Assembly: GCA_001829185.1 (NCBI GenBank)
Contig: MIAR01000057.1
Location: 1-57,029, forward strand
Source of the DNA: Spirochaetes bacterium GWB1_60_80
GTDB taxonomy: Bacteria; Spirochaetota; Spirochaetia; Treponematales; UBA12059
DNA: 57,029 bases
Reading direction: 5' to 3'
The translations under genes and the position numbers were made by a program. A model generated the notes under the pieces. The model was not told the origin of the DNA. It made no database searches and saw nothing but the letters and a program-made list of their open reading frames with translations. This document shows positions 1,460 to 47,246 of this stretch, piece after piece (positions within the stretch are counted from its first letter, which is position 1; every line of letters begins with the position of its first letter).

Positions 1460-4324
1460 TCAAATCTTGCCGAGCGCTTTCAGCACCCGTTCCGGGGTGA
1501 AGGGCCACTCCCGGCACCAGACGCCGACGGCGTCGTGGATGGCGATGGCGATGGCCGGGGCAGCCCCATTCAGGCTGATCTCGGACACGCTCTTGCCGCC
1601 GAAGGGTCCGACCTCGTCGGCCACCGGCACCAGCTCGATGTGGAAATCCTCCGGCACCTCGAAGACCGACGGGATCTTGTAGTCCAGGAAGCCGGTATTG
1701 AGCGGCTTGCCGTTTGGATCATACAGCATTTCCTCGTACAGCGAATGGCCGACCGCCTTCATGACGCCGCCGTAGATCTGGCCCAGGGCCAGCGCCGGGT
1801 TGATGGGCGTGCCGCAATCCTGGTAGGCGTGGTAGCGCTTGAGGACGACCTGGCCGCTGCGCTCGTTGACGGCCACCTGCGCGAAGTGGGCGCCGTAGGG
1901 GAAAGCGGCGTGGTCGGTCTTGAAGTTGCCGTAGCCGCATAGCTCGTGGTGCCCTTCTCCCTGGATGGACAGGTGCGCCAGTTTGGCCAGGCTGATCTCG
2001 CCTTGCTTGCCGCGGACGATGCCGCGCGGCACCAGGCGCAGGTCTTCCACCGGCTCGCCCAGCAGGCCGGCCGCGACGGCCAGGCACTTGGCGCGCAGGT
2101 CCTCGGCGGCGCGCACCGCGGCGTTGCCCGAGAAATAAGTCCCCGAGCTGGCGTAGGCGCCTTTGTCAAAGGGCGTTATATCGGTATCACCGGAGATGAC
2201 GGCCACGTCCTCCATATCCAGCCCCATGATCTCGGCGGCCGCCTTGGCGGTGACGGTGTCCAGGCCGGTACCGAGGTCGGCGCCGCCGGACAAGAGCAGC
2301 AGCGTACCGTCGGCCAGGAGCCGCAGTTCGGCGTTGGCCGCGTCCAGGCCAGGCAGGCCGGAGCCTTGCTGGATGATAACGGCGCCCTGTCCGGACTTCC
2401 AGCCGGGCTCGGCGGCCGGCCTGGGCATTGACCACTTGAAGGCCTCGCGGCCGCGCCGGATCATTTCGCCCAGGCCGCACTCGCCCAGCGTCACGGCCGC
2501 GCCGGGCCGTCCCTCGCCCAGGCTGCGCAATATCTCGATGGTCGAGCCGGAACGGACCCGGTTCTTTTCCAACAGGTCGAGCTGGTCCATGCCCAGTTCG
2601 GCGGCCAGCTCGGCCAGGGCCGTCTGCAGGGCGAAGGAGCCCTTGGGCGCCCCGTAACCCTGGTAGGCGCCGGCCGGCGACAGGTTGGTATAGTAGCTCT
2701 TGACCTCGAAGCGGGCGTTGTCGCACAGCACCAGCGGCAGGCTCTTGCTGATGGCGTTCATCGGCACGGTCAGGCAGTGCTGGCCGTAGGGGCCGGTGTC
2801 GGCGTCCAGTACCATCTGCACCGCCGTCAGCCGGCCGTCTTGCTTGGCGCCCAGCTTGACGCTGATCTCCATGACGTGGCGGGTGCGGCTGGCGCTGAAT
2901 TCCTGGGCCCGGTCGTAGCGGAAGAAGACCGGGCGGCCGGTGGTCCAGGCCAGCCAGCCGGCCAGGTCCTCGACCACGATGTCCTGCTTGGCGCCAAAGC
3001 CGCCGCCGACCCGCTCCTTGATGATGCGGACCTTGTTCTCGCTGATGCCGATGACCCGCGAGACGATGCGGCGGACGTGCCACGGTACCTGGGTGGAGGC
3101 GTGGATGACCAGCCGGCCGCCATCGACCTTGGCATAGACGACATGCGGCTCCAGCGGCGTGCACTGGACGCGGTTGCCCTTGTAGCTTCTCTCGATGACC
3201 ACGTCGGCCTCGGCGAAGCCTTTTTCGACGTCGCCGATGCCGTCGGCCACGCTGGCCGCCAGGTTGCGGTGCGGGTCGGCATGTAAGGGGAACTGGTATA
3301 TTATCGGATCATCGCGGCCGTCGCCCTTGACGGAGCTGCCAGCCGGCGGATTGCCGACCACGTAGCTGACCTCGCCGTGGTGCACGATCGGCGCGCCGCT
3401 CGCCTTGGCCGCGGCGATGGACAGGACGGGCTGGAGGACCTCGTACTCCACCTTGATGGCGGCCAGGGCGGCGCGGGCCTCGTCCAGGCTCTCGGCCAGC
3501 ACCGCCGCCACGCGGTCGCCGACGTAGCGCAGCTTGCGCGGGAACATGCGCTGGTCGTGGGGACTGGGTTCGGGAAAGCCCTGGCCGGCCGTGGTGTAGA
3601 CCTGGTCGGGGCAATTCTGGTGCGTGACGATTGATACCACGCCGGGCATGGCCTCGGCTGCCGCCGTATCAATCGACTTGACCCAGGCGTGGGCGTGGGG
3701 GCTGGGCAAGACTAAGAGGTGGCAAGCCGTGGCGTCCACTCGGTCCTCGACGAAGGCCCGCTCGCCGCGGGCCAGGCCGGCGGCGTCGACCTTGTCGCGG
3801 TCCTTGCCGACATGTACCAGGTCGGGCCGGAATTCCGGCCCGGCCGGTTCAACGTAGGCCGGATCTAGCAGACGGGCGGCGGCGATGCGGGCGGCGGCAT
3901 AAAACTGCTCGTAGCCGGTGCAGCGGCAAAGCGTGCCGGACAAGGCGTCCCGCACCTCGGCCTTGGTCGGCCGCGCGCTGCGTTCCAGCAGTTCGTGCAG
4001 GGCCAAGACCACGGCTGGGGTGCAATAGCCGCACTGCACGCAGGCGGCGTCGATCAAGGCGCGCTGGACGATGGACAGGCCACGGTCCTGGCCGTAATGC
4101 TCGACGGTGTAGACGCGGCTGCCGTCGACTTGTAGGGCCAAGAGCTGGCAGGAGTTGACCAGCCGGCCTTCCAGCAGCACGGCGCACAGGCCGCAGCTGC
4201 CTTCGCCGTCGCAGCCGTTGCGCACCGAGACGAGGCCCTTGCGCCGCAGGACGGCCAGCAGCGTTTCGGCCGGCTCGACTTCCCAGGCCACGGTCCGTCC
4301 GTTAAGAATAAATGACGTTTTCAT
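1460..4324 (-). CDS. xdhD: Fused 2Fe-2S / molybdopterin-binding dehydrogenase, XdhD type
   Basis: A 954-residue molybdenum hydroxylase that fuses an N-terminal two-cluster 2Fe-2S domain to the Mo-binding domains, the architecture of E. coli XdhD (selenium-dependent xanthine/hypoxanthine dehydrogenase family). Cys38, Cys44, Cys47 and Cys59 fit the plant-type cluster; CVQCGYC near residue 97 and LCRCTGY fit the second cluster. GGGFGAKQD lies near residue 441 and AYQGYGAPKG near 553. The expected catalytic Glu is in SVSEISLNG near 911. The FAD part is on the separate gene just upstream, and the two overlap by ATGA. The ATG at 4324 has GGAGG seven bases upstream. Substrate (purine hydroxylation) is inferred from family and context. 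No in-frame TGA suggests selenocysteine; selenium would be a cofactor ligand. Confidence 0.93.
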   Translation of the reverse strand: MKTSFILNGRTVAWEVEPAETLLAVLRRKGLVSVRNGCDGEGSCGLCAVLLEGRLVNSCQLLALQVDGSRVYTVEHYGQDRGLSIVQRALIDAACVQCGYCTPAVVLALHELLERSARPTKAEVRDALSGTLCRCTGYEQFYAAARIAAARLLDPAYVEPAGPEFRPDLVHVGKDRDKVDAAGLARGERAFVEDRVDATACHLLVLPSPHAHAWVKSIDTAAAEAMPGVVSIVTHQNCPDQVYTTAGQGFPEPSPHDQRMFPRKLRYVGDRVAAVLAESLDEARAALAAIKVEYEVLQPVLSIAAAKASGAPIVHHGEVSYVVGNPPAGSSVKGDGRDDPIIYQFPLHADPHRNLAASVADGIGDVEKGFAEADVVIERSYKGNRVQCTPLEPHVVYAKVDGGRLVIHASTQVPWHVRRIVSRVIGISENKVRIIKERVGGGFGAKQDIVVEDLAGWLAWTTGRPVFFRYDRAQEFSASRTRHVMEISVKLGAKQDGRLTAVQMVLDADTGPYGQHCLTVPMNAISKSLPLVLCDNARFEVKSYYTNLSPAGAYQGYGAPKGSFALQTALAELAAELGMDQLDLLEKNRVRSGSTIEILRSLGEGRPGAAVTLGECGLGEMIRRGREAFKWSMPRPAAEPGWKSGQGAVIIQQGSGLPGLDAANAELRLLADGTLLLLSGGADLGTGLDTVTAKAAAEIMGLDMEDVAVISGDTDITPFDKGAYASSGTYFSGNAAVRAAEDLRAKCLAVAAGLLGEPVEDLRLVPRGIVRGKQGEISLAKLAHLSIQGEGHHELCGYGNFKTDHAAFPYGAHFAQVAVNERSGQVVLKRYHAYQDCGTPINPALALGQIYGGVMKAVGHSLYEEMLYDPNGKPLNTGFLDYKIPSVFEVPEDFHIELVPVADEVGPFGGKSVSEISLNGAAPAIAIAIHDAVGVWCREWPFTPERVLKALGKI

Positions 4325-5310
4325 GGCAGCACCTCCGCGGACAGCAGCGCCTGCAGGCAATCAGCCACCAGGGCCGCGCCTTGCTGGCGCTTGAAGGCGC
4401 TACTGCCGCGCTGGTCGTCGATGGCCGACAAGAGCGGCCGGATCGCCGCCTCGGTGGCGGCCAGGTCGTCTAGGTCGCGGCCGTCGAACAGCGCCTCGAT
4501 ATCGAGACGGCGTAGGGCGTGCAGGCTAAAACCGCCGACCACCAGGCACAGCTCAAGCAGCCGGCGGCCTTTGACGGTAGCGACGGCGGCCACGGTGGCG
4601 GTGGAGACATCGCAGGCGGTGCGGCTGGAGCGGGCGAAGGCGGCGCTCCGCCCTCCCCCGGCCGGCAGGATGAGGTTCAGGAGCAGGCCGGCCGGCTTGA
4701 TTAACCACTTGGCCAGGGGCAGCGTCTGGTTGGCCGGGCCGCCGCCGGCGCATTCCACGGCCGCGTCGAGCGCCAGGCAGAGCGGCACCAGGCTGGCGCA
4801 GCTTTTGTTGAAGGCCAGGTTGCCGCCGACCGTGGCCCGATTGCGGATGTTGCGGTTGGCCATGCTGCGCGCCGACGCCTGGAGGGCCGAGAAGGCCAGC
4901 GGGCTTTCCAGCACTTCCTGGAAGGTGGTGCCGGCGCCGATGACCAGGCCGGCCGCCGTCTGGTTCAAGCCGCGCGGCAGGATGCGGCCGACGTCGATCA
5001 GGAGTTCCGGGAAGTCGGCGGCGGTGCGGTTGCCGGCCACCGAGGGCGAGGCGGTCGACAAGAGGGCTGTACCGCCGGCCAGCCAGGCTGCGCCACCAAT
5101 AGTGGCTGCGCCACCAATAGTGGCTGCGCCACCAATAGTGGCTGCGCCACCAATAGTGGCTGCGCCACCAATAGTGGCGGCGCCACCAATAGTGGCGGCG
5201 CCACCAATAGTGGCGGCGCCACCAGAGGTGGCGGCGCGCTTGGCCAGGGCCTGTTCCATCAAGGCGACGGCCTCGGCCGCGTCCTTGGGTCGTACATATT
5301 CCTTTACCAT
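4321..5310 (-). CDS. ygfM: FAD-binding subunit of molybdenum hydroxylase, YgfM type
   Basis: A 329-residue xanthine-dehydrogenase-type FAD domain protein that would pass electrons from the XdhD 2Fe-2S centres to the final acceptor. The flavin loop appears as WLAGGTALL and the second flavin motif as RNIRNRATVGGNLA. The C-terminal part has the usual CO-dehydrogenase flavoprotein C-domain with DQRGSSAFKRQQ. Between the first helix (residues 1-28) and the flavin loop sits an unusual array of seven TIGGAA hexapeptides preceded by one TSGGAA, encoded by the 18-bp repeats at 5092-5235. The ATG at 5310 overlaps the previous gene's stop by 7 bases and has AAGGGA upstream. It overlaps xdhD by ATGA. The E. 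coli homologue has no such array. Confidence 0.9.
   Translation of the reverse strand: MVKEYVRPKDAAEAVALMEQALAKRAATSGGAATIGGAATIGGAATIGGAATIGGAATIGGAATIGGAATIGGAAWLAGGTALLSTASPSVAGNRTAADFPELLIDVGRILPRGLNQTAAGLVIGAGTTFQEVLESPLAFSALQASARSMANRNIRNRATVGGNLAFNKSCASLVPLCLALDAAVECAGGGPANQTLPLAKWLIKPAGLLLNLILPAGGGRSAAFARSSRTACDVSTATVAAVATVKGRRLLELCLVVGGFSLHALRRLDIEALFDGRDLDDLAATEAAIRPLLSAIDDQRGSSAFKRQQGAALVADCLQALLSAEVLP
5092..5235. repeat. In-frame 18-bp tandem repeat inside ygfM (8 units)
   Basis: Units start at 5092, 5110, 5128, 5146, 5164, 5182, 5200 and 5218. Seven share GCCACCAATAGTGG; the eighth has GCCACCAGAGGTGG. The first four end in CTGC and the last three full units in CGGC, so two sub-types form blocks, as expected for duplication by slippage or unequal exchange. 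Each unit encodes one TIGGAA hexapeptide on the minus strand, so copy-number change keeps the frame. Confidence 0.97.
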
Positions 5311-36179: not shown

Positions 36180-36271
36180 CAGCCGCCCGCAGCCCGGCCC
36201 GGCTTCAACCCCCGGCTAGGGCAGCGGCCACGGCGCGCCTTCGGCGCGTCTCCAGCTTTTCGGGAGGATTT

Positions 36272-37315
36272 ATGAAACCTGTTGTCCACACCATCCGCCG
36301 CGGTGGATTCGCCATACTGTTGCTGGCCCTGACCTTCACCTTGGCGGCTTGCCTGGAAAGCGCCAGCAGCCGCGGTTTGCTGCCCGGGCTCTATGCCCGC
36401 CTCGAAACCAGCCGCGGCACCATCATCGTCCATCTCGACTACGACAAGGCGCCGCTGGCGGTGGCCAATTTCGTCGGCCTGGCCGAAGGCACCCTGGACG
36501 CTTCCTGGAACAAGCCCTTCTACGACAGCCTCACCTTTCATAAAATCATGCCCGGCCTGCTTGTCCAGAGCGGCTGTCCCTACGGGGACGGCACCGGCAC
36601 CGCCGGCTACATCTTCCCCGACGAGTACCATCCTAGCTTGCGCCACGACGCCGCCGGCGTCATGGGCTACGCCCAGGGCAATTCCAACGACACCAACAGC
36701 TCCCAATTCTACATCACCATGGCCCCCCTGCCCTTCTTGGACGACAAGTACACCATCTTCGGCCGCGTGGTCGTCGGCCTCGACTTATTGGAAAAAATCG
36801 CCCTGGGCGATGTTCTGGAGAGCGTCATTATTGAACGCGTTGGCCAGGCCGCCGTCGATTTCCGCTGCGACCAGGAAGCCTGGCAGGAATATTTCGACAT
36901 CGCCCTGGAAGGCGCCCGCATCCGGATGCAGATGCAGCGCCAGACGGCCCTGGCCGGCATCCAGCGGCTCTGGCCGGAAATGCGACCTGGCCTGTTCGAT
37001 ATCCTGACCGCCAGCCTGCAGGAAGGCAGCGGTCCCAAACCGGAGGTCGGCGCCGCCGTCAAGGTCCACTACAAGGGCATGCTGGCCGATGGCACCGTCT
37101 TTGACCAGACCAACCCGGCCGGCGACCCCTACAGCTTCGAACTGGGTGTCGGCCAGGTTATCGAAGGCTGGGACGTCGTCGTCGGCAACATGCGCCAGGG
37201 CGAGAAGCTGCGCGTGGCCATCCCGCCGGAAATGGCCTACGGCTCGGAAGGCTACGCCGACATCATTCCCGGCAACAGCTTCCTGGTCTTCGAGATCGAG
37301 CTGGTCGATTTTTAA
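36272..37315 (+). CDS. Dual-family immunophilin lipoprotein: cyclophilin + FKBP
   Basis: A 347-residue exported peptidyl-prolyl isomerase carrying two unrelated isomerase folds. The signal peptide ends in lipobox LAAC (lipidated Cys near residue 27). The cyclophilin domain covers about 40-190 (GTIIVHLDYDKAPLAVANF, FHKIMPGLLVQSG, NSSQFYITMAPLPFLD). A helical linker leads to an FKBP domain at about 250-347 (VKVHYKGMLADGTVFDQ, GVGQVIEGWD, IPPEMAYG). It should act on periplasmic protein folding. The ATG at 36272 follows GGGAGG; earlier in-frame codons read as non-coding. A strong terminator follows. Cyclophilin-FKBP fusions are known from Treponema and Flavobacterium, which supports a spirochaete host. 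Confidence 0.94.
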   Translation: MKPVVHTIRRGGFAILLLALTFTLAACLESASSRGLLPGLYARLETSRGTIIVHLDYDKAPLAVANFVGLAEGTLDASWNKPFYDSLTFHKIMPGLLVQSGCPYGDGTGTAGYIFPDEYHPSLRHDAAGVMGYAQGNSNDTNSSQFYITMAPLPFLDDKYTIFGRVVVGLDLLEKIALGDVLESVIIERVGQAAVDFRCDQEAWQEYFDIALEGARIRMQMQRQTALAGIQRLWPEMRPGLFDILTASLQEGSGPKPEVGAAVKVHYKGMLADGTVFDQTNPAGDPYSFELGVGQVIEGWDVVVGNMRQGEKLRVAIPPEMAYGSEGYADIIPGNSFLVFEIELVDF

Positions 37316-37340
37316 CTGATCCATGGCGACAAGCTAAGCA

Positions 37341-37375
37341 GCGACCGGGGTTTTCCACCCCGGTCGCTTTTTTTT
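37341..37375 (+). terminator. Rho-independent terminator of the immunophilin gene
   Basis: GCGACCGGGG and CCCCGGTCGC pair around TTTTCCA and are followed by eight T residues. Confidence 0.95.
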
Positions 37376-38939
37376 AGCGCCGGTAGCCGCGCCGGGCCAG
37401 CTCCAGCTCCACCCTGGCCGGGCGCTCGGCCAGCGACAGCGCCCGCAGGAACATGGTGCGGGCGGCCTGGTCGCGGCCGGCTTTCTCCAGACAAAGCGCC
37501 GCCTCCAGATAATAGCCCGCCGCGCCGCGCGGCTGCCCACCGGCCTTGAGCAGCGCGGCCACCGCCTCGAAGTCGGCCGCGGCCTGGACTAGCTTGCCGA
37601 AAACCGCCTCGGGCACGGCGGCCGCCACATTGGCCCGGTTCAGCAAGGCCGCCTGGCGGGCGCCTTCCGGACCGCTCGCGGCGGACAGGGCCACCGCCCG
37701 GTCGAGCAACTGGAAAGCCGCCTGCACCAGAGCCACGGCCTGGGCCGGGTTGGTCTGGCCGCCCCGCATCGCCATCAGCGAACCCTTGTAGGCCAGGGCT
37801 TCGGCCGCGTCCGGATCGGCCTGCAATAGGCTGTCGAAGGCCGCCTCGGCCTCAGCCGACCGGCCGGCACCGAACAGGGCGACGGCCCGAGTCAGCCGAT
37901 CGGCCGAGGCCAGGTCAAGCGCCTGCTGCGCCTGCCAGGCTGCCTGGTCGGCTTCCGACTCGGCGGCCGCCGCTAGGCGCAGCTCCTCGAGCCGCTGGGC
38001 GGCGGCCGAGCGGCTGGCCTGGGCGCGGGGAGAGCGGTAGCTGACCAGGGGATCGAAGCCCGGCACCTCCAGCGGCGGCAGGACGACCAGGCCGCTGACC
38101 GGGTCAGGCGCCGCGGCCAGCAACTCGGCCTGGCTGCGGCCATCCGGCGCTATCAGGTCGTAGACCCGGCTGGCGTCCAGGCTGGCGGCGCCGCCGCCGG
38201 AACGCAGGCCGGCCGCTTCGCGCACCGCCATGATGCCGCCGGGCGCCAGCGGGTCGGCCAGGCAGCACAGCACCCAGTGCCGGGTCGGCCGGCCGTCCAG
38301 CACCGGCTTGGTTTCGGCCAGGTCCAAAGGAATGCGCACCGCCAGGGTGGCCGTCTGGGTCACCACGAAGCAGGTCAGCGGCTGGCGCTGGCCGGCGACC
38401 GTGATCAACTCGGCGCCGCCAGGCAGGCTGCCGTCCAGCCGGACCATGAAGTCCCAAGCCGCCTCCAGCGGGAAGGCTACGTACTCGCCGCGCGCCGCCT
38501 CTGTCTGGCTGGAACCGCTGGGGCCGTCGATATCGATATAAATAGAAACCACGATGCCGGAAAAACCGCTGGCCAGGCTAAAAGGATTGGCCAGCTGGCT
38601 GAGGGTGACGTCGAGTTGCCAAAAATCGGCCGGCTCGCTCCAGGCGGCATTGACCAGCGGCCGGCGCACCTCGTAGACGGCCAGGTCGGCCAAACCGCCG
38701 CCGGCAAAAGCCTCATGCAAGGGGTAACTCAGGCCGCCAGAACCGGCGTCGTCACCCAGGGCATCACAGTACGTGGCCAGCAGCGGGCCGCCGGCGAAGG
38801 CCGGGTCGACCCGCACCTGCAGGGCGGCGTGCAGGCGCGGATAGATGGCGCCGCCAAAAATGAAGGACAGCGGAATTAGAACCAAGCTGGCCTTGGCCAA
38901 CAGGCGCAGAATCGGCGACAGCCAGTATGAAAGCTTCAT
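37374..38939 (-). CDS. Anchored periplasmic protein with DOMON-like (glucodextranase C-type) and TPR-like domains
   Basis: A 521-residue protein with one N-terminal hydrophobic anchor (about 12-35). Residues of about 60-240 match the pattern of the glucodextranase C-terminal DOMON-like beta-sandwich (DALGDDAGSGGLSYP, LANPF, IVVSIYIDIDGPSG, AWDFMVRLDG). Residues of about 325-521 are TPR-like helices with ALAYKGSLMAMRGG. That block resembles one in the secreted protein at 40922-41641. DOMON folds bind haem or sugars, but no haem ligand can be assigned here. GAGGAG lies before the ATG at 38939. Last gene of a five-gene envelope operon, 11 bases after the NapH-like gene. Function unknown. Confidence 0.78.
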   Translation of the reverse strand: MKLSYWLSPILRLLAKASLVLIPLSFIFGGAIYPRLHAALQVRVDPAFAGGPLLATYCDALGDDAGSGGLSYPLHEAFAGGGLADLAVYEVRRPLVNAAWSEPADFWQLDVTLSQLANPFSLASGFSGIVVSIYIDIDGPSGSSQTEAARGEYVAFPLEAAWDFMVRLDGSLPGGAELITVAGQRQPLTCFVVTQTATLAVRIPLDLAETKPVLDGRPTRHWVLCCLADPLAPGGIMAVREAAGLRSGGGAASLDASRVYDLIAPDGRSQAELLAAAPDPVSGLVVLPPLEVPGFDPLVSYRSPRAQASRSAAAQRLEELRLAAAAESEADQAAWQAQQALDLASADRLTRAVALFGAGRSAEAEAAFDSLLQADPDAAEALAYKGSLMAMRGGQTNPAQAVALVQAAFQLLDRAVALSAASGPEGARQAALLNRANVAAAVPEAVFGKLVQAAADFEAVAALLKAGGQPRGAAGYYLEAALCLEKAGRDQAARTMFLRALSLAERPARVELELARRGYRR

Positions 38940-38950
38940 GGCAATGCTCC

Positions 38951-40222
38951 TCAATTAAACAGGAAGGAACCGTGCAGCACCAAGTTGAGCAGGCGGGTGA
39001 CGGTATTGACGGCAAAGCCGCCCATGATGATGCAGCCGAACAGCCAGCCGGAAAAGGGCAACAGGGCCTTGGGATCGGACAGCTCGACGGTCAGAGACAG
39101 GCCCGCGGCCAATGCCCGCGCCAGGCGCTTACCCGAACGCAGCCGGGCAATGGTGGGCTCAAAGCGGCCGGGCCGCGGCGTGCAGGGCTGCCAGGTGAAC
39201 TCGTAGCGGATAGCCTGCCGCGAGCAGGCCGCCATGCACAGGCCGCACTTGGTGCAGGTCAGCAGCACCTTGCCTTGGGCCTGATGCTGGCCGCCGGACA
39301 GGCAATCCTCATGGATGGACAGGGTCGGGCAGACCCGCAGGCAAGCCTGGCAGCCGTTGCACAGGGTCGGGTCGATGCGCACCCGGTAGAGCGACAGCTT
39401 GTCGGCCAGCGACTGGAAGGCGCCGAAGGGGCAGAAGCTCATGCACTGCGCCCGCTTTTTGGTCAACAGGGGCAGCACCACCACGAAGCCGAAGAAGGTC
39501 AGCACCAGGAGCACGAAGGCGATCAGGCTCGGGCCGTTGGTCACCTGATCGAATTCGGTGATCAGCTTGAAGGGGCACAGCCAGGCGCAGTAGACGGCCG
39601 TAAAGGTGGCCAGGGCGGCCAGCGCCACGAAGAGCAACATGCTGAAGTTAAAGTAACGGATTTTCTTGTCCGGGTCCTTTACCGGCAGCATGGCCTTGCG
39701 TGGCAGGGCGGCCAGGCCTTCGTCCCAGCCGCCGTAGAAGCAGACCCAGGAGCACCAGCCGCGGCCGAGGGTGAAGGTGGCCACCAACCAGATCAACAGC
39801 ATCGGGTAGAAGGCGGCGTAGTGGTTGCTGAGCTGGGCCGGGAAGATCAGCACGCCCTCCAGCAGATACGGCAGGATGGTCATCGGCAGCACGATGTGGC
39901 AGAACGGCGTCTCGGTCGCGAAGATATCGCTTGCGGTCAGGAACATGCTGCCGCGCGCCTCCAGCAAGTTGGCGATGAACGAAGGGAAGAAGAACAGGGC
40001 CCCGGCCACGAACATCAAGCGGCGGTACTTACCGGTCTGGCCGGTGACCAGCAGGCGCCAGAAGGCGGCGCCGGAGGCGACGGTCAACAAGGCGGCGGCC
40101 GGCAGACTGAGGCCGCGGGCATTATAGAGAAAGAAGAAGGCCAGCATCAGCAGCATCAGGCCGCCTAGGACCAGGCTGGCCGGTAAGGACAGGGCATTTC
40201 TAAAACGTCCGGATTGAATCAT
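38951..40222 (-). CDS. NapH/NosR-like membrane polyferredoxin
   Basis: A 423-residue membrane protein with six or more helices and two cytoplasmic 4Fe-4S clusters (CNGCQACLRVCP and CTKCGLCMAACS near residues 290-340). It also has the NapH/NosR/CcoG-type motifs GRGWCSWVCFYGG, CAWLCPF and CMSFCPFGAF. Such proteins move electrons across or along the membrane to periplasmic reductases or assembly factors. No napA, nosZ or ccoN partner is nearby. The start overlaps the SafE-like gene by ATGA. Within the envelope operon it is the clearest redox component, and its electron donor and acceptor are not identifiable. Confidence 0.9.
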   Translation of the reverse strand: MIQSGRFRNALSLPASLVLGGLMLLMLAFFFLYNARGLSLPAAALLTVASGAAFWRLLVTGQTGKYRRLMFVAGALFFFPSFIANLLEARGSMFLTASDIFATETPFCHIVLPMTILPYLLEGVLIFPAQLSNHYAAFYPMLLIWLVATFTLGRGWCSWVCFYGGWDEGLAALPRKAMLPVKDPDKKIRYFNFSMLLFVALAALATFTAVYCAWLCPFKLITEFDQVTNGPSLIAFVLLVLTFFGFVVVLPLLTKKRAQCMSFCPFGAFQSLADKLSLYRVRIDPTLCNGCQACLRVCPTLSIHEDCLSGGQHQAQGKVLLTCTKCGLCMAACSRQAIRYEFTWQPCTPRPGRFEPTIARLRSGKRLARALAAGLSLTVELSDPKALLPFSGWLFGCIIMGGFAVNTVTRLLNLVLHGSFLFN

Positions 40223-40920
40223 GACCAGCCTCCGGTCAGGATCTTGAGCAGACCCTCAAAGAACAGAAAATAGACGCCCAGCAGCAGCATGGCGCCGCGC
40301 GCCACCGGTTTGAGACCGCTCCTGAGGTTGGCCAAGCGCGGGCTGGCCAGCCAGCCGCCGGCGAAGAGGGGAATCAGCCAGACGCTGGTTCCCAGGTAAA
40401 AGCTGAAGAAGTACCAGACGCCAGCCAGCGGTCCGCCGGCGGTAGCAGCGCCATCCGCGCCGCCGGCCAGGCTGGGGGCGACTAGCCCGGCGCCGAACAA
40501 ACGGGCGGCGGCGGCCACGAAGGGCGGGCAGATACTCAGGCCGGCGGCCAGACCCAACAGGAAGAGACCGCGCCCCGGCCGCCACCAGCGGGCCGTCAAC
40601 TGGCAGAGCTTGAGGCGCGGAAAGTGGTACAACAAGCCGCCCAGGCTGAGGACGGCGCCGGACAGGAGCCAGCTGGCGATCTGCAGGCGGCGGGCGTGCA
40701 GCGGGTCGAGGAAGCCGGCGGCGTAGGTGCCCAGGCCGCCCAGCAGTAGGCCGACGGCCAGGTAGGCCAGCAGGCGCCCGAGCATGAACAGCCCGACCCG
40801 GGCGGCGTTGGCGCGGTGGCCGGCCGGCTCGGCCAGGATCGACGGCAGGGCCAGCGGCAGGCAGGTCATGACGCAGTAGCTGCCAGTACTGAGGCCGAGT
40901 AAGAAGCCTTCGAAGTTCAT
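40219..40920 (-). CDS. SafE/CcdA-like membrane protein
   Basis: A 233-residue membrane protein with about six helices. It belongs to the sulfite-exporter TauE/SafE, UreH-like and DsbD/CcdA-related group. The first helix carries SYCVMTCLPLALPS and a later one GLSICPPFVAAA, giving CxxxxC and CPP motifs as in thiol/electron or metal-handling relatives. SafE-like genes often sit beside CcoG/NapH-type ferredoxins in oxidase or reductase maturation loci. GGAGG precedes the ATG at 40920. It overlaps the NapH-like gene by ATGA and lies one base after the helical-repeat gene. Confidence 0.82.
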   Translation of the reverse strand: MNFEGFLLGLSTGSYCVMTCLPLALPSILAEPAGHRANAARVGLFMLGRLLAYLAVGLLLGGLGTYAAGFLDPLHARRLQIASWLLSGAVLSLGGLLYHFPRLKLCQLTARWWRPGRGLFLLGLAAGLSICPPFVAAAARLFGAGLVAPSLAGGADGAATAGGPLAGVWYFFSFYLGTSVWLIPLFAGGWLASPRLANLRSGLKPVARGAMLLLGVYFLFFEGLLKILTGGWS

Positions 40921-40921
40921 G

Positions 40922-41641
40922 CTATTCCTCCAGCCTAGCCAAAAGCTGCCGGGCTTGGCGGCCGGCGGCGGATTGCGGCGCGCAGTCAATGGCCCGGTAC
41001 AGGCAGGCCAAGGCCGCGGCCGCCTGGCGCTGTAGCAGCTTGAGGCGGGCGCAGGCCAAGTAGTAGAGGGCCCGTGACGCGGGGTCTAGGCTGGCCTCGG
41101 CCAAGCCGATGGCCTGTAGGTCGGCCGTGATGGCGGGCTGGCGGCTGAAGGGTGTCGTCTCGCTGATGGCCAAGCCGTTCTCCAGGCGCAGGAAGCGGAT
41201 GGCCAGATCCTGCCCATCGAGCAGGACGGCCTGATCCATCAGGGCAAAGCCGCTGTTCAGCCGGCTAGAAGCCGCCACCACGTTGCCGCGCTGATTATCA
41301 ACGCTGGCCAGCAGGGTGACGGCGCTGCCGCGGTAGGCCAGGGCCAGGGCGGCATAACGGCCGCCGCGGTAGGCGGCCAAGCTGGCCACGGCCGACTCGG
41401 CCCAGCGGGCGGCGTCCTGGATGGCCAGATTGTGCAGAATCAGGCCGGCATAAAAGGCGGCGTCCGGGTCGCTCGAGGCCTGCCAGGCAGCCAGCAGCGA
41501 CTGCAGCCGGGCCGGGTCGGCCGCGGACTGGATGGCCTGGACCGGGTCGGCAGCCTGGGCGGCGGCCGGAGCGGCCAGCCCGGCGACGTTACAGGCCAGC
41601 AGACAAGCCAGCGCCAGGCCGGCGAAATTAGTCAACTTCAT
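40922..41641 (-). CDS. Secreted TPR-like helical protein
   Basis: A 239-residue exported protein with a signal peptide (cleavage near AAPAAAQA, residue about 30). It then consists of Ala/Leu-rich helical repeats. The block ALAYRGSAVTLLASVDNQRG...GFALMDQAV aligns with ALAYKGSLMAMRGG...AFQLLDRAV in the DOMON protein of the same operon, so they share a domain. GGAGG precedes the ATG at 41641. It is probably a periplasmic scaffold linking the outer-membrane barrel to the inner-membrane redox proteins, but this is inference. Confidence 0.72.
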   Translation of the reverse strand: MKLTNFAGLALACLLACNVAGLAAPAAAQAADPVQAIQSAADPARLQSLLAAWQASSDPDAAFYAGLILHNLAIQDAARWAESAVASLAAYRGGRYAALALAYRGSAVTLLASVDNQRGNVVAASSRLNSGFALMDQAVLLDGQDLAIRFLRLENGLAISETTPFSRQPAITADLQAIGLAEASLDPASRALYYLACARLKLLQRQAAAALACLYRAIDCAPQSAAGRQARQLLARLEE

Positions 41642-41697
41642 GGTATCCTCCTCATGATTATAGGAAATTAAGCCAGCGGTCAGGCAGGCCGCCGGCG

Positions 41698-43095
41698 TCA
41701 ATCGAAGCCGCCGCTGCCCACCAGGCCGATACCCCACACGCCGGACCGGTTGACGCCGGCGTGGAGCGTGAAATGGGTGTTGACCGGCGCGTCGAAACCG
41801 AAGCGCAGGCCACCCCCAAAGGCTTCCAGGAAATAGGCGCCGGCCGTCTCCGGCGCGGCATTGAGGCGGAGCGCCTCCGGCAAGGCCGCCGGATCGAGCG
41901 TTTGGCGCTCGGCCAGGGCCAGGTCGGCGAACAGGAAAAGCTTGAGGTAGGTATTGAAAAAGGGCGGTATAAAAAAGCGCAGGGCCGGGCCGCGCAGTTC
42001 GATATTGGCCAGCAGGAAACGGTCTGGGCTGGCCTGGCTGAAGGACAGCGCCGAGCGCACCGCGGCGTCCGCCGTACTGGCCAGGTCAAAACGGCGGTTC
42101 AGCGGCAAGCTTCCGGCCGACCATCCGGCGCTGGCCTGCAGAGCCAGCGCGAAGAATTCATTACCGACGATGGCGGCCAGGCGGCCGCTCGCCTGGGCTT
42201 GGACCGCCGCCAGCCAATCCAATTCGGCGGCCACCGGCCAAGCGGCCAGGCTGAGGCCGGCCGAGCCATTTCCCGCCAGGTTGAGGCTAAAGGCTTGGCC
42301 GGGGAAACGGAAGCGGGCGGCTAGCGTGGCCGCCAGGCCGGGCGACAGCCAGCTGCCGGCTGGGAACCAGGCCGCCGCCGGCTGGTCGGGCAGCAGATCC
42401 ATGTAGCGGGCGTCCAGGTTAATACCCAGCCGCCAGTCGGGATGGGGCCGCCAGGCCAGGCTGGCTTCAGCCTCGAAGCGATGGAAGGGCAGCAAGCCGC
42501 CCAGCAGGCTGTTGCTGTACAGGGCGCTGCCGGCCGCCTCCAGGGGCAGGCCGAAAAGCAAGCCGTCGGCATACTCGGCGCCAGCCAGATTGGCCCCGGC
42601 GTACAGCCGCCAAGAACGGCGCAGCCCGCCAAAGTTGTCCAGACCGACCAGACCGAAGGCGTTACCGCCGCCAAAGCGCCAGCGGAAGCCTTCGCGCAGG
42701 CTGATGACCACTAGGCGGGCTTGCGGGTCGCGGTTGGAGGGTAGTACCAGCACGCTGGGGGCATAAAAGCAGCCGCTGCCGGCCAAGCGGGCCTCGGCGG
42801 CGCCGGCCCGGCGCCGCAGGTCGGCCTCGGCCAGCTGGTCGCCTGGCCGAAAATCGAGAAAGCTGGCCACCATGGCCGGATGGCTCAAGCCGTTGGCCTC
42901 GCGTTCCGGCATGGCGGCCGGATCACGCCAATTGTAGACGCTATCGTCGATGATGAAACGCACCAGGCTGATGTTTATTTTTGCCGCCGGATCGGCCGAC
43001 CCGATCGCCGCCGGCTGGCCCGGTGCCTGGCCAAACGTGGCCCACGCCACCAGCCAGAGTAAGACAAGCCCACCAATTTTTCCGCGAAATGGCAT
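41698..43095 (-). CDS. POTRA/beta-barrel (Omp85-like) outer-membrane protein
   Basis: A 465-residue protein with a signal peptide ending near FGQ (residue about 22). Residues of about 40-145 look like one POTRA module (ISLVRFIIDDSVYNW, FRPGDQLAEADLRRR, LVVISLREGFRWRFGGG). About 300 residues of amphipathic beta-strands follow, typical of a 16-strand barrel. It is shorter than BamA and has one POTRA, as in small TpsB/BamA-like relatives. GGGGGG precedes the ATG. It is the first gene of the envelope operon; the 218-base gap upstream, to the luxR stop, contains the palindrome at 43246-43263. Confidence 0.75.
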   Translation of the reverse strand: MPFRGKIGGLVLLWLVAWATFGQAPGQPAAIGSADPAAKINISLVRFIIDDSVYNWRDPAAMPEREANGLSHPAMVASFLDFRPGDQLAEADLRRRAGAAEARLAGSGCFYAPSVLVLPSNRDPQARLVVISLREGFRWRFGGGNAFGLVGLDNFGGLRRSWRLYAGANLAGAEYADGLLFGLPLEAAGSALYSNSLLGGLLPFHRFEAEASLAWRPHPDWRLGINLDARYMDLLPDQPAAAWFPAGSWLSPGLAATLAARFRFPGQAFSLNLAGNGSAGLSLAAWPVAAELDWLAAVQAQASGRLAAIVGNEFFALALQASAGWSAGSLPLNRRFDLASTADAAVRSALSFSQASPDRFLLANIELRGPALRFFIPPFFNTYLKLFLFADLALAERQTLDPAALPEALRLNAAPETAGAYFLEAFGGGLRFGFDAPVNTHFTLHAGVNRSGVWGIGLVGSGGFD

Positions 43096-43245
43096 ACCGC
43101 CCCCCTTCTGTTGACGCGACACCGTCCCTTGGCAGGCGAGGGCGCGCGCCTGGCCGGCAAAATTCTTTCGGCGGCCCGGTCAGGAGGATACAGCGCCAAG
43201 CGCGCGGCGGCTTGTCGGGAAAAGGGTGATTCGGCCTGGAATCGC

Positions 43246-43263
43246 GTCAACCTTGCGGTTGAC
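43246..43263. promoter_or_regulatory. Palindrome GTCAACC-N4-GGTTGAC, candidate operator
   Basis: Seven-base perfect arms around TTGC lie between the LuxR-type regulator and the envelope operon. Its size and symmetry fit a dimeric helix-turn-helix binding site. A terminator role is less likely because no T-run follows on either strand. Confidence 0.35.
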
Positions 43264-43313
43264 AAGCCGACGCCAGAGCGGCCGGCGGGTCGTCGGCATT
43301 GACTAAACGGCCG

Positions 43314-44357
43314 TCAGGAACCGCGCAGCTTGTTGATGACGTCGATCTTGGAAGCGGCGCCCAGCTTGGCGTAGAGGCGGATGATGTAGGTCTTGATGGT
43401 GGCCACCGACAGGTCGAGGGCAGCGGCAATTTCTTTATAACTACGGCCAGCGCATAGCTGGCGGGCCATCTCGCGTTCGCGTTCCGACAGGCCATGGCTG
43501 GCCATACAGGCTTCGTCTAGGCCGCGACAGGCCCCGGCCGACGGAACCGGCTGCCCGGGCGGCGGCGCGGCCGGCAGGGGTAGCAGGCTGCAGGCCATCT
43601 GGCGCAGCACGTTGGCCAGATAGACTAGGCACCAGCTGACGAAAAACAGCGGGAAGAAGCGGAAGCCGGCAGTTGATAGCTTGGTGACCGGCGGCAAAAG
43701 ATCGAAGAATACGAAGGCCGGCAGATAGGCCAGGGTCAGCCAGCTGGCCAATGTGGAGACATTCTGCCAGAACGGAGAAATCCTGTCGGCCAGCGGCTGG
43801 CGGCGCCGGCGGCTAGCCCCGATACCGCTGATCACGATACCGCTGACCGAAATGCCGCCGATGGTCAGCGCGTAGCTGCCGAAGACCAGCAGCGACAGGT
43901 AATAGTTCCAAGGGCCGCTCCACAGGATGGCGTTGGCCAGCCATAGGGCGGCGGCCAGGCCGGCCAGCAGCCCGAGCAGGCGCCGGGCATGGCGGAACCG
44001 GGGCATCAGGGCCAGGGCGAAGGCCGGCGTAGCCCACAAACCCAGGCAGACGCCGCTGATGGTCACAAAGCTGAGGATGGACTGGGCACTGTTGAAGCGG
44101 AGAATAGTTGGATCAGCCGGCGCCGCCTCCGGCCAAAGGATGGCCAGCGTGGCGCCGGCCATGATGAAGGAAAAGGAGAGTACCAGCAAAAAATGGGCTT
44201 TTTCGGCGTTGAGGGCCGTCCAGTCGACGGCGGCGCTGTCGGCCGGCAGGAGCTTCCGGTAGCGGCCGAAGAAAAGACTGCGCGCCAAGGCCACTACCAC
44301 GGTGACCAGCATGACGGAGTAGCAAAAAAACCAGTAGATGAACAGTAAAGCCCTCAT
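43314..44357 (-). CDS. Membrane-bound LuxR-type transcription regulator
   Basis: A 347-residue protein with seven or eight predicted membrane helices in the first 270 residues and a C-terminal LuxR/GerE helix-turn-helix (LSEREREMARQLCAGRSYKE, LDLSVATIKTYI, KLGAASK). It has no phosphoryl-accepting domain, so the membrane part probably senses a ligand or membrane state. GGAGG precedes the ATG at 44357; the upstream codons of the longer frame lack support. It lies directly upstream of the POTRA/NapH operon on the same strand and is its most likely regulator. It diverges from the hybrid kinase. Confidence 0.88.
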   Translation of the reverse strand: MRALLFIYWFFCYSVMLVTVVVALARSLFFGRYRKLLPADSAAVDWTALNAEKAHFLLVLSFSFIMAGATLAILWPEAAPADPTILRFNSAQSILSFVTISGVCLGLWATPAFALALMPRFRHARRLLGLLAGLAAALWLANAILWSGPWNYYLSLLVFGSYALTIGGISVSGIVISGIGASRRRRQPLADRISPFWQNVSTLASWLTLAYLPAFVFFDLLPPVTKLSTAGFRFFPLFFVSWCLVYLANVLRQMACSLLPLPAAPPPGQPVPSAGACRGLDEACMASHGLSEREREMARQLCAGRSYKEIAAALDLSVATIKTYIIRLYAKLGAASKIDVINKLRGS

Positions 44358-44552: not shown

Positions 44553-47246
44553 ATGCTGCCTACCAGTCTGTCATTTTGGTTATCCAGAGCCTCCGCGGTC
44601 ATTGTCCCGATTTACCTGTATGCGGCCTACCGCTCGCTGCGGCTCAACCCGCGCGGCACCGCCAACCGCCTCTCGGCCCTCTTCAACGCCGTCTTTGCCG
44701 TTTGGGCCGGCGCGGCGGTATTCTGGTACTCGGCCGAATCCGCCAGCCAAGCTGACTCCTGGTACCGGGCCTTCAGCTGGACCTGGTGCCTCTTCCCGCC
44801 GCTGGTGCTGCACTTCAATCTGACCATTTCCGGTTCCAGCCTGCGTAAGCGGCGCTGGCTCCGTTATCTCGTCCTGGTAGCGATCTACGCGCCGGCCGCC
44901 TTGCTAATCTACTTGACTCCAACTCGTATTCTGTCTACCCCGGTTTACCGTCTCGGCCACTGGATGCTGACGGTCAACTACGCCTGGCCGTACTATTTCT
45001 TCGTCGCCCATTTCATTCTCTACAGCCTTATCGGCATCCTGGCGGTCAACTTCGCCCGTGTTAAGTCGCGCAACGGCAACGAACGCTCCCGCCTAGCCGT
45101 CATTGTGGCCACCTTGATCCTGGCCATCAGCTTCGGCTTCCTGACCGACGGCATCTTCATCATGACCCAGGCCGACGTGCCCAACCTGGCTATCTTCTGG
45201 GCGCTGATCGTGTCACTGGGCCTTTTAATGGCCATCAACCGCTTCGGCTTCCTATCGCCGTTGCCGATAGCCGAGACGCCCCGCATCCTCAACGCCCTGG
45301 CCGACATAGTGGTGTTCCTGGACAGCACCGGCAGTATCGCCTGGGCCAATAAAAGCGCCCTGGAAAGCGCCGGCCTGACCAACCTGGAAGCCGTCAAGGG
45401 CAAAGGCATCGACCTGTTTGTTGACGAGGCCGACGCGCGTTCTATTGGTGACACGGCCCGTGGCCTGATCGACTTCTATACCGGGCGTTCGCACTGGGGC
45501 CAGCGCCGGCTGCCGGTCAGCCTGCGTTCCCGGGCCATCGTCGACCTCAACCAGGTACAGGGGGCCATCGTCACCGCGCTGGACATGAGTACGGCCTTCG
45601 CCCTGGAGAAAGCCGAGCAGACCGCCGCCGACTCAGGACTGTTATTCAACGAGTTCATCGAACATTCGCTGGACGGCATCATCTTAACCGACGCCGACGG
45701 CAACATCACGGTCTGGAACGCGCCCATGGTCAGCCAGACCGGCCTGGCGACCAGCGAGGTTCTGGGCACCAAGATCTGGGATACCATGGCCCGGCTGCTT
45801 CCGGCCAACAAGCGCAACCAGCAGGACTCCATCGGGCTCAAGCGCAGCATCATCACCGCCATGCTCGGTTCCAGCTCGCCTTGGACCAGCAAGATTATCG
45901 AACAGCCCATAACCCGGACGGACGGCGAGGAACGCATTCTGCAGAGCAGCTCCTTCATCATACCGCTACGCACCGGCGCCATCTCGGCCACCATCATCCG
46001 CGACATCACCGAAAGCCGGCGGGCGTCGGAAGAAATGATCGAACGCATCCGCAAGCTCGACCACGCCCAGAAAATGGACGCCGTCGGCTCGCTATCCGGC
46101 GGCATCGCCCACGACTTTAACAACACCCTGGGCGGCATCGTCGGCGCCATCTCGCTCATCAAGATGGGCGTGGAGGATGGCACCTACACCAAACTGTCGG
46201 ACATCGAAAAGGAAATCAGCATCATCGACCGCTCGGCCGCCCGGGCCAGCGCCTCGGTAGCCCGGCTGCTGGCCCTAACCAAGAAGCGCCTGCCGGAAAA
46301 CAATATCTTCAAATTCAAGGAGGCCCTCAAGCGGGTATGCGACTTTGCCATGCGCGGCATGGACAACGCGGTGCTCATTGAATTCCCGAAGAACAGCCGT
46401 GAGGCCTATATCAACGGCGATCCTGGCCTCATCGAGCAGATGCTGCTCAACCTGTTCATCAACGCCGAGCACGCCATGACCATCATGCGGCCGAAAGGCC
46501 AGAAACGCGGCGGGCACATCGTCGTCGGCCTGGAACGCTTCAAGCCGACCCAGAATTTCCTGGCCATCAATCCGGCCGCCAGAAAGCAGGACTACTGGTG
46601 CGTTAGCATCCAGGACGAAGGCGTCGGCATTCCGCACCACATCCTGCCGCACATCTTTAACCCTTTCTATAGCACCAAAAATTCGGAAAAATCGAACGGC
46701 CTGGGTCTGTCCATGGTTCACTCCATCGTCGCCCAGCACGGCGGCTTCGTCGATGTGGCCAGCCAGCTCAATAAAGGCAGCACCTTCTTCATCTACTTGC
46801 CGGCGGCCGACATCGCCGACGCTAAAACTAGCCAGCGCCAGCAAATTCTGCGTGGCACGGGCAGCATCCTGCTGGTGGATGACGACGAGGTGGTGCGCGA
46901 CACCGGCATGGCCATGCTCGGCGCCCTAGGCTACAGCTCGGAGGCGGCCGTCTCCGGCGAGGAAGCCATTGAGTTGTTCAAGCAGGAACCAGAGCGCTGG
47001 GCGGCCGTCATCATGGACTTGCGCATGAACGGCATGAGCGGCGACGAGGCCACCATGATACTACGCGGCATCCGCTCCGACCTGCCGGTAATACTGGCCT
47101 CCGGCTTTGCCAGCGAAGAAGCCATCCGCCTATCCGAAGACCAGCCGGCCATGACCTTCATCCAGAAGCCCTATTCCATCAACACCCTCAGCCTGGCCTT
47201 GATGGAAGTCCAGGGCAAGGGTTCGGCTGGCAATTCGACCCGGTAG
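44553..47246 (+). CDS. Hybrid histidine kinase: 7TM, PAS, HisKA/HATPase, receiver
   Basis: An 897-residue sensor. About seven membrane helices (1-230) of the N-terminal 7TM histidine-kinase type come first, then two PAS-like domains (about 240-345 and 365-490). The phospho-accepting His is in GGIAHDFNN near 519. ATP-binding motifs follow ([31 protein letters not shown]), and a C-terminal receiver has its phospho-Asp in [12 protein letters not shown] near 821. With no separate output domain, the phosphate probably passes to another regulator. GAGGAT precedes the ATG. It diverges from the membrane LuxR gene, so the pair may control the envelope operon jointly. Confidence 0.94.

Follow-up and report, generated by a model that had tools for sequence, protein, structure and literature searches.

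The 57,029-nucleotide stretch of Spirochaetes bacterium GWB1_60_80 analysed here (contig MIAR01000057.1; "the window") carries a tightly packed minus-strand cassette of five genes, which encode an Omp85-superfamily outer-membrane protein, a secreted TPR-like protein, a DsbD_2 (CcdA-like) membrane protein, a NapH-like polyferredoxin and an anchored DOMON-like/TPR protein, in that order and with a LuxR-type (GerE) regulator gene upstream. We found that the functional core of this cassette consists of three genes (those for DsbD_2, the polyferredoxin and the anchored DOMON-like protein), that this core is more widespread than the five-gene set, and that membrane-coupled regulators from several unrelated families recur beside it. 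We read the cassette as an electron relay of the inner membrane that is inducible and, in spirochaetes, extended by envelope components, an interpretation whose chances we consider evenly balanced. The original prediction had described the five genes as a candidate trans-envelope redox system; it contained neither the three-gene core and its wide spread nor the pairing with membrane regulators and the operator repeats, which are new here.

Conservation and spread

The original prediction proposed checking whether the five genes co-occur in other genomes, and named their failure to do so as a refutation. It is not refuted on this count: profile searches recovered all five genes, with their order unchanged, at 11 distinct loci in spirochaetes, including the window (the others being L020, L022, L023, L027, L029 = L141, L125, L135, L137, L139 and L140; L numbers are loci and G numbers genomes). 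The three core genes are adjacent in approximately 90 of 95 loci, a set that includes some contigs fetched twice and whose non-adjacent exceptions are mostly cut by contig ends. Outside the spirochaetes, and in many treponemes, the core occurs without the barrel and TPR genes, and the outer-membrane parts are absent from most copies.

A scan of 84,980 species genomes yielded 74 loci, and 32 of the 394 genomes of the order carry the module. Its hosts are anaerobes from at least six phyla, found among Spirochaetota, Bacteroidota, deltaproteobacteria, Verrucomicrobia, Elusimicrobia, Riflebacteria and Delongbacteria. Only 2 of 59 relatives have a close homologue of the polyferredoxin (52% and 44% identity), and the sole other genome of the same genus has none, which marks the cassette as accessory. 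At one treponeme locus (L123, genome G064), DsbD_2, the polyferredoxin and the operator described below are kept, no DOMON gene was detected alongside and the genome has no LytTR gene; this may be a module in decay.

The redox core

The DsbD_2 protein matches PF13386 with 57.1 bits against a cut-off of 24.9. Four cysteines (C39, C43, C129 and C154, numbered from 40989) are conserved at 99-100% in 87 sequences, and the family thereby keeps a CX3C-xP motif and a second cysteine pair. The polyferredoxin matches Fer4_5 (8e-16) and Fer4 (4.9e-11), both above the Pfam cut-offs. Across 91 sequences, three CX3C pairs, a PFCH motif and the eight ferredoxin cysteines of its two 4Fe-4S motifs are invariant. 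The positive-inside rule, applied by eye and not computed, would place two CX3C pairs and the ferredoxin part in the cytoplasm, and one CX3C pair together with PFCH in the periplasm. For the CX3CP motifs of NapH, NosR and RdhC, disulfide formation is considered likelier than cluster binding (PMC5928378).

The polyferredoxin scores far below the curated cut-offs for NapH/MauN, with 62.6 against 213.05 bits for TIGR02163 and 65.9 against 234 bits for NF007013. A Bacteroidales member of the family (L040) fails both the NosR cut-off and that of CcoG (TIGR02745, 20.3 against 316.7 bits), and CcoG is not among the best 25 matches of the window protein. The CcoG comparison bears on a role in metal handling, in which the polyferredoxin would reduce a metal ion and the four-cysteine DsbD_2 protein would bind or move it. 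Cupric reductase activity is reported for CcoG, a related polyferredoxin; the cysteine pattern of DsbD_2 would suit such a role, and there is a weak match to the PpoB2 "copper chaperone" (E 0.006). However, apart from the Bacteroidales protein's distance from CcoG, the hosts are anaerobic, and we noticed no gene for a copper ATPase, chaperone or oxidase beside the core. We consider metal handling improbable.

The third core member takes two forms. Spirochaete members are long DOMON/TPR proteins that match PF09985 (Glucodextran_C) above the cut-off (1e-18 and 68.2 against 22 bits in the window), which indicates a DOMON/CBM9-like sandwich. Outside the spirochaetes the position is filled by a 150-aa protein, here called C2, that has no Pfam match and is homologous to the N-terminal part of the long form (hhalign Prob 99.5, E 8.5e-23); by this profile comparison, the two belong to one family. 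The structure model of C2 (mean pLDDT 89.6) combines a single transmembrane helix with a sandwich of eight strands. In VIA alignment, dopamine beta-hydroxylase comes out on top with its DOMON part (Z 5.8), and a CBM9 module reaches Z 4.7. Because these values are weak and near those of immunoglobulin-like sandwiches, we give more weight to the Pfam match obtained with the long form. Foldseek ranked the iron-uptake protein P19/FetP first for C2, a relation that we set aside because the E-value (0.076) is at background and VIA places the dopamine beta-hydroxylase DOMON first.

The original prediction also suggested staining the DOMON protein for haem. We rejected a haem-carrying DOMON protein because no Cys, His or Met is conserved in an alignment of 89 C2/DOMON sequences; one histidine (H226) is kept in 96% of the long spirochaete-type proteins (26 sequences), and in that group only. 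Sequence searches of the PDB with the DsbD_2 and DOMON proteins returned nothing useful.

Regulators and operators

In 17 Treponema loci, a stand-alone LytTR gene lies downstream of the module, at most 84 bp away in 16 of them and 240 bp away in the other (L138). A gene of DUF3021 size then follows in all 17, usually with an overlap of a few bases, and those tested match Pfam above the cut-off. Treponemes have 0 to 6 LytTR genes, and in four module-bearing treponemes the module-linked one is the only one of the genome. Upstream of the operon lies a repeated operator, TGCAWCTTRCC-N10-TGCAWCTTRCC; of the 17 loci aligned, 13 have a 10-bp spacer. It mostly sits 10 bp before a -35 box, with a -10 box 17 bp further on.

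Other lineages have different regulators. In Bacteroidales and Verrucomicrobia, a protein with several transmembrane segments (four in Bacteroidales) and a C-terminal LytTR domain is usually encoded directly upstream, and tandem WTTYRYCCC repeats spaced 20-22 bp apart precede DsbD_2. The Treponema operator outscores every other site of its locus in 17 of 18 cases, and so do the WTTYRYCCC repeats at 22 of 26 loci with an adjacent four-segment LytTR protein, but both motifs were derived from the sequences later scored and these ranks therefore overstate significance. At most loci that have no regulator next to the module, the repeats are weaker or missing.

The window, L020, L022 and L023 have as their regulator a GerE protein with six to seven transmembrane segments. 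The homologues in L020 and L023 (six segments) are encoded directly upstream on the same strand, with gaps of 151 and 64 bp, and that in L022 is divergent. The window genome has no LytTR gene, and its membrane-bound LuxR regulator, which the original prediction had correctly placed ahead of the cluster, has approximately seven hydrophobic segments. A PadR gene above the cut-off lies upstream in L139, L140 and L036; in the first two it is accompanied by a membrane protein whose gene overlaps the start of the barrel gene and whose HAAS match is below the cut-off. No mutual homology was detected between DUF3021, the four-segment part of the Bacteroidales LytTR proteins and the membrane part of the GerE proteins, so pairing with a membrane-coupled regulator seems to have arisen several times, by convergence.

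Such repeated pairing with unrelated regulator families, through membrane parts that are not detectably homologous, could also mean that the trio is itself the input of the adjacent regulator. The polyferredoxin and DsbD_2 would then report the redox state of the envelope and release or activate LytTR, GerE or PadR. There is precedent in NosR and RdxB/CcoG, which affect transcription. However, some module loci have no adjacent regulator, the operators precede the trio as they would for a regulated effector, and the Treponema LytTR protein already has a partner in DUF3021, a type of membrane protein known as the inhibitor in LytTR regulatory systems (PMC6193735). We regard a redox sensor, the main rival of the relay, as unlikely, though not negligibly so. 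We hold the same view of its most general form, in which unrelated membrane-coupled transcription factors would all be gated by the trio as a general redox-signalling complex, which would thus supply the input of LytTR-type membrane systems in anaerobes.

A search for further sites of the Treponema operator found few, with no clear functional theme; a MatE gene is among them. The same LytTR-type operator precedes the gene of a small membrane protein with an HEYGHT motif, possibly a metalloprotease, in the Treponema loci L143 (G106), L152 (G156) and L155 (G128); in G140 (L144) there is only the identical operator sequence. The region upstream of a C39-like protease gene in G106 carries the operator, and the same operator sequences occur in G140. 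A second LytTR and DUF3021 operon, with a lipoprotein gene first, has the same operator (L164 272-1414, genome G377). At L148 1596-2803 (G136), the operator stands before genes for a DUF2141 protein and a flavodoxin/ferredoxin fusion protein, the latter a possible electron donor for the module.

Envelope additions in spirochaetes

The C-terminal half of the DOMON/TPR protein is homologous to the free secreted TPR protein (hhalign Prob 98.4, E 5e-15). The latter has no Pfam match of its own, and its homologue in L125 passes the Pfam TPR cut-off. The AlphaFold model of the barrel protein has a confident POTRA domain at residues 48-144 and a barrel part of moderate confidence, and the best Foldseek matches are BamA and TamA (E 3.5e-11). 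There is no informative Pfam match to the protein itself; its homologue in L020 is above the POTRA cut-off. The barrel family has no conserved cysteine.

The fixed order of the Omp85 and TPR genes in the spirochaete cassette could point to thiol reduction for outer-membrane biogenesis, with the relay keeping cysteines of an Omp85/TPR export machine, or of its clients, in the reduced state. Since most phyla and many treponemes have the core by itself, and the barrel has no conserved cysteine, we think this quite improbable.

The original prediction had electrons travelling from the cytoplasm through the periplasm to the cell surface, and the sharing of one operon by inner-membrane redox proteins and an outer-membrane barrel speaks for such a conduit. 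It was right that the cluster encodes no cytochrome, and multihaem cytochromes, the mark of porin-cytochrome conduits, are likewise missing from the cluster genes. However, no chain of haem, flavin or cysteines spans the periplasm, the DOMON-like family has no conserved haem ligand, and the barrel has the Omp85 fold and not that of a porin-cytochrome system; we know of no electron carrier in an Omp85 barrel. The core also lacks barrel and TPR genes in most lineages. A conduit to the surface is therefore highly improbable, and that part of the prediction is not supported.

The cassette in the window and its neighbours

The five open reading frames, their order and their strand are as originally predicted, with support from Pfam, AlphaFold and Foldseek (Table 1). 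Packing is tight: the polyferredoxin gene overlaps the DsbD_2 stop by 4 bp, and the DsbD_2 start adjoins the TPR stop. A strong hairpin beyond the last gene is likely the end of the cluster transcript.

Table 1. Features of the cassette and its borders (window positions).
Feature	Position	Strand	Basis or remark
LuxR (GerE) membrane regulator, approximately seven transmembrane segments and C-terminal helix-turn-helix	43314..44390	-	GerE 1.3e-13 (Pfam)
Omp85-superfamily outer-membrane protein, one POTRA-like domain	41698..43122, likely start ATG 43095	-	AlphaFold, Foldseek, Pfam match of homologue
Secreted TPR-like protein	40922..41737, likely start ATG 41641	-	Family homology (hhalign); Pfam TPR in homologue L125
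DsbD_2 (CcdA-like) membrane protein	40219..40989, likely start ATG 40920	-	PF13386; four invariant Cys
NapH-like membrane polyferredoxin	38951..40222	-	Fer4_5 and Fer4 above Pfam cut-off; invariant motifs
Anchored DOMON-like (Glucodextran_C) and TPR protein	37374..38954, start TTG 38954 or ATG 38939	-	PF09985 1e-18
Strong hairpin, 12-pair stem then T-run on + strand	37340..37368		Between cluster and convergent peptidyl-prolyl isomerase gene

The convergent neighbour (36269-37315) encodes a fusion of cyclophilin-type and FKBP-type peptidyl-prolyl isomerases. On the other side, a hybrid histidine kinase gene (44553-47246, plus strand) does diverge from the LuxR gene, as had been noted; its product has seven N-terminal transmembrane segments (a weak HisKA_7TM match) followed by PAS, kinase and receiver domains. 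Neither gene was seen conserved with the cassette, and we rejected both as parts of the system. Further away (1460-4360), a gene for a xanthine-dehydrogenase-type molybdoenzyme lies near carbamoyltransferase and adenine deaminase genes, a neighbourhood that suggests a purine or allantoin-like pathway.

Proposed electron relay

If the cassette is an inducible electron relay, a soluble low-potential carrier such as ferredoxin or flavodoxin would deliver electrons on the cytoplasmic side to the two 4Fe-4S clusters of the NapH-like polyferredoxin. Its CX3C pairs would pass them on to the four membrane cysteines of DsbD_2, and hence to the periplasmic face, where they may serve reduction or repair. 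The anchored DOMON-like sandwich would be a non-redox docking or substrate-binding subunit at that face, and the spirochaete TPR proteins and Omp85 barrel presumably position an acceptor or handle an outer-membrane client. Production would be switched on by the membrane-coupled regulator of each lineage (LytTR with DUF3021, four-segment LytTR, seven-segment GerE, or PadR with a membrane protein), perhaps in response to conditions in the envelope. The gene set and its order, the conserved cysteines, the folds, the neighbouring regulators and the operator repeats are observed; the direction of electron flow, transfer between cysteines, the ferredoxin donor, the periplasmic role and the envelope response of the regulators are inferred.

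The choice of donor draws on the treponemes. Among the module-bearing treponeme genomes checked, no MenD above the cut-off and no c-cytochrome assembly gene were found, and only one has a VitK2_biosynth match above the cut-off. This makes it unlikely that those treponemes use menaquinol as donor or a c-type haem as acceptor. The same reasoning does not apply to the window genome, where one cytochrome-assembly-type gene and one VitK2_biosynth match are present.

Several observations weigh against the relay. No acceptor gene is conserved in the cluster, and the DOMON-like family offers no conserved cofactor ligand. A motif search found no thioredoxin-like partner within 4 kb at the 95 loci (one may be encoded elsewhere in the genome), and a search with one pattern found no flavin mononucleotide (FMN) attachment motif within 8 kb, which leaves the last step blank. 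The supposed contact between DsbD_2 and the polyferredoxin is suggested by gene adjacency only. As for inducibility, the operator ranks are inflated as explained above, and no operator was identified for the GerE regulator of the window.

The three-gene core appears to be an undescribed inner-membrane redox module of anaerobes. The co-inherited set has no named counterpart in the curated families, as the original prediction had supposed, and we found no published account of the DsbD_2/polyferredoxin/DOMON combination in the open-licence literature. The regular pairing with regulators opens two testable routes, one to what an orphan polyferredoxin/DsbD_2 family does and one to the signals of LytTR regulatory systems, which are unknown (PMC6193735). 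Spirochaetes in which no menaquinone or c-type cytochrome pathway genes were detected might use the module to supply electrons to the envelope.

Comparison with known systems

Like BamA and TamA, the cassette barrel combines POTRA and barrel parts, but it is short, has only one POTRA-like domain and belongs to a redox operon. The spirochaete DOMON-like proteins share PF09985 with the DOMON/Glucodextran_C/CBM9 group, to which C2 has its weak structural match. They differ from that group in being membrane-anchored and in having no conserved haem ligand, and the short C2 form has no Pfam match.

With NapH, NosR and RdhC (PceC), the polyferredoxin has in common a membrane Fer4_5 protein with CX3C(P) motifs. 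It adds a third CX3C pair and the invariant PFCH, lies far below the NapH cut-offs, has no FMN-type motif nearby and has DsbD_2 and DOMON proteins as partners in place of a respiratory reductase. Flavinylated NapH-like and DsbD gene clusters have been proposed to carry electrons from the cytosol to extracytosolic proteins (PMC8238504). The cassette combines NapH-like and DsbD-like proteins in one cluster, and we set it apart from those systems because neither an FMN motif nor a thioredoxin-like partner was found near the 95 loci.

The closest regulatory parallel is with the LytTR Regulatory Systems (LRS), with which the Treponema module shares a LytTR and DUF3021 pair in the same operon. Published LRS promoters have direct repeats 11-13 bp apart, approximately 10 bp upstream of the -35 box (PMC6193735), and the Treponema repeats, with a 21-bp period and approximately 10 bp before the -35 box, match this layout. 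The window genome, without LytTR, uses a membrane GerE protein instead, and in Treponema the LytTR and DUF3021 genes stand at the 3' end of a redox operon. Judged from its sequence, the Treponema module bears the published marks of an LRS-controlled operon.

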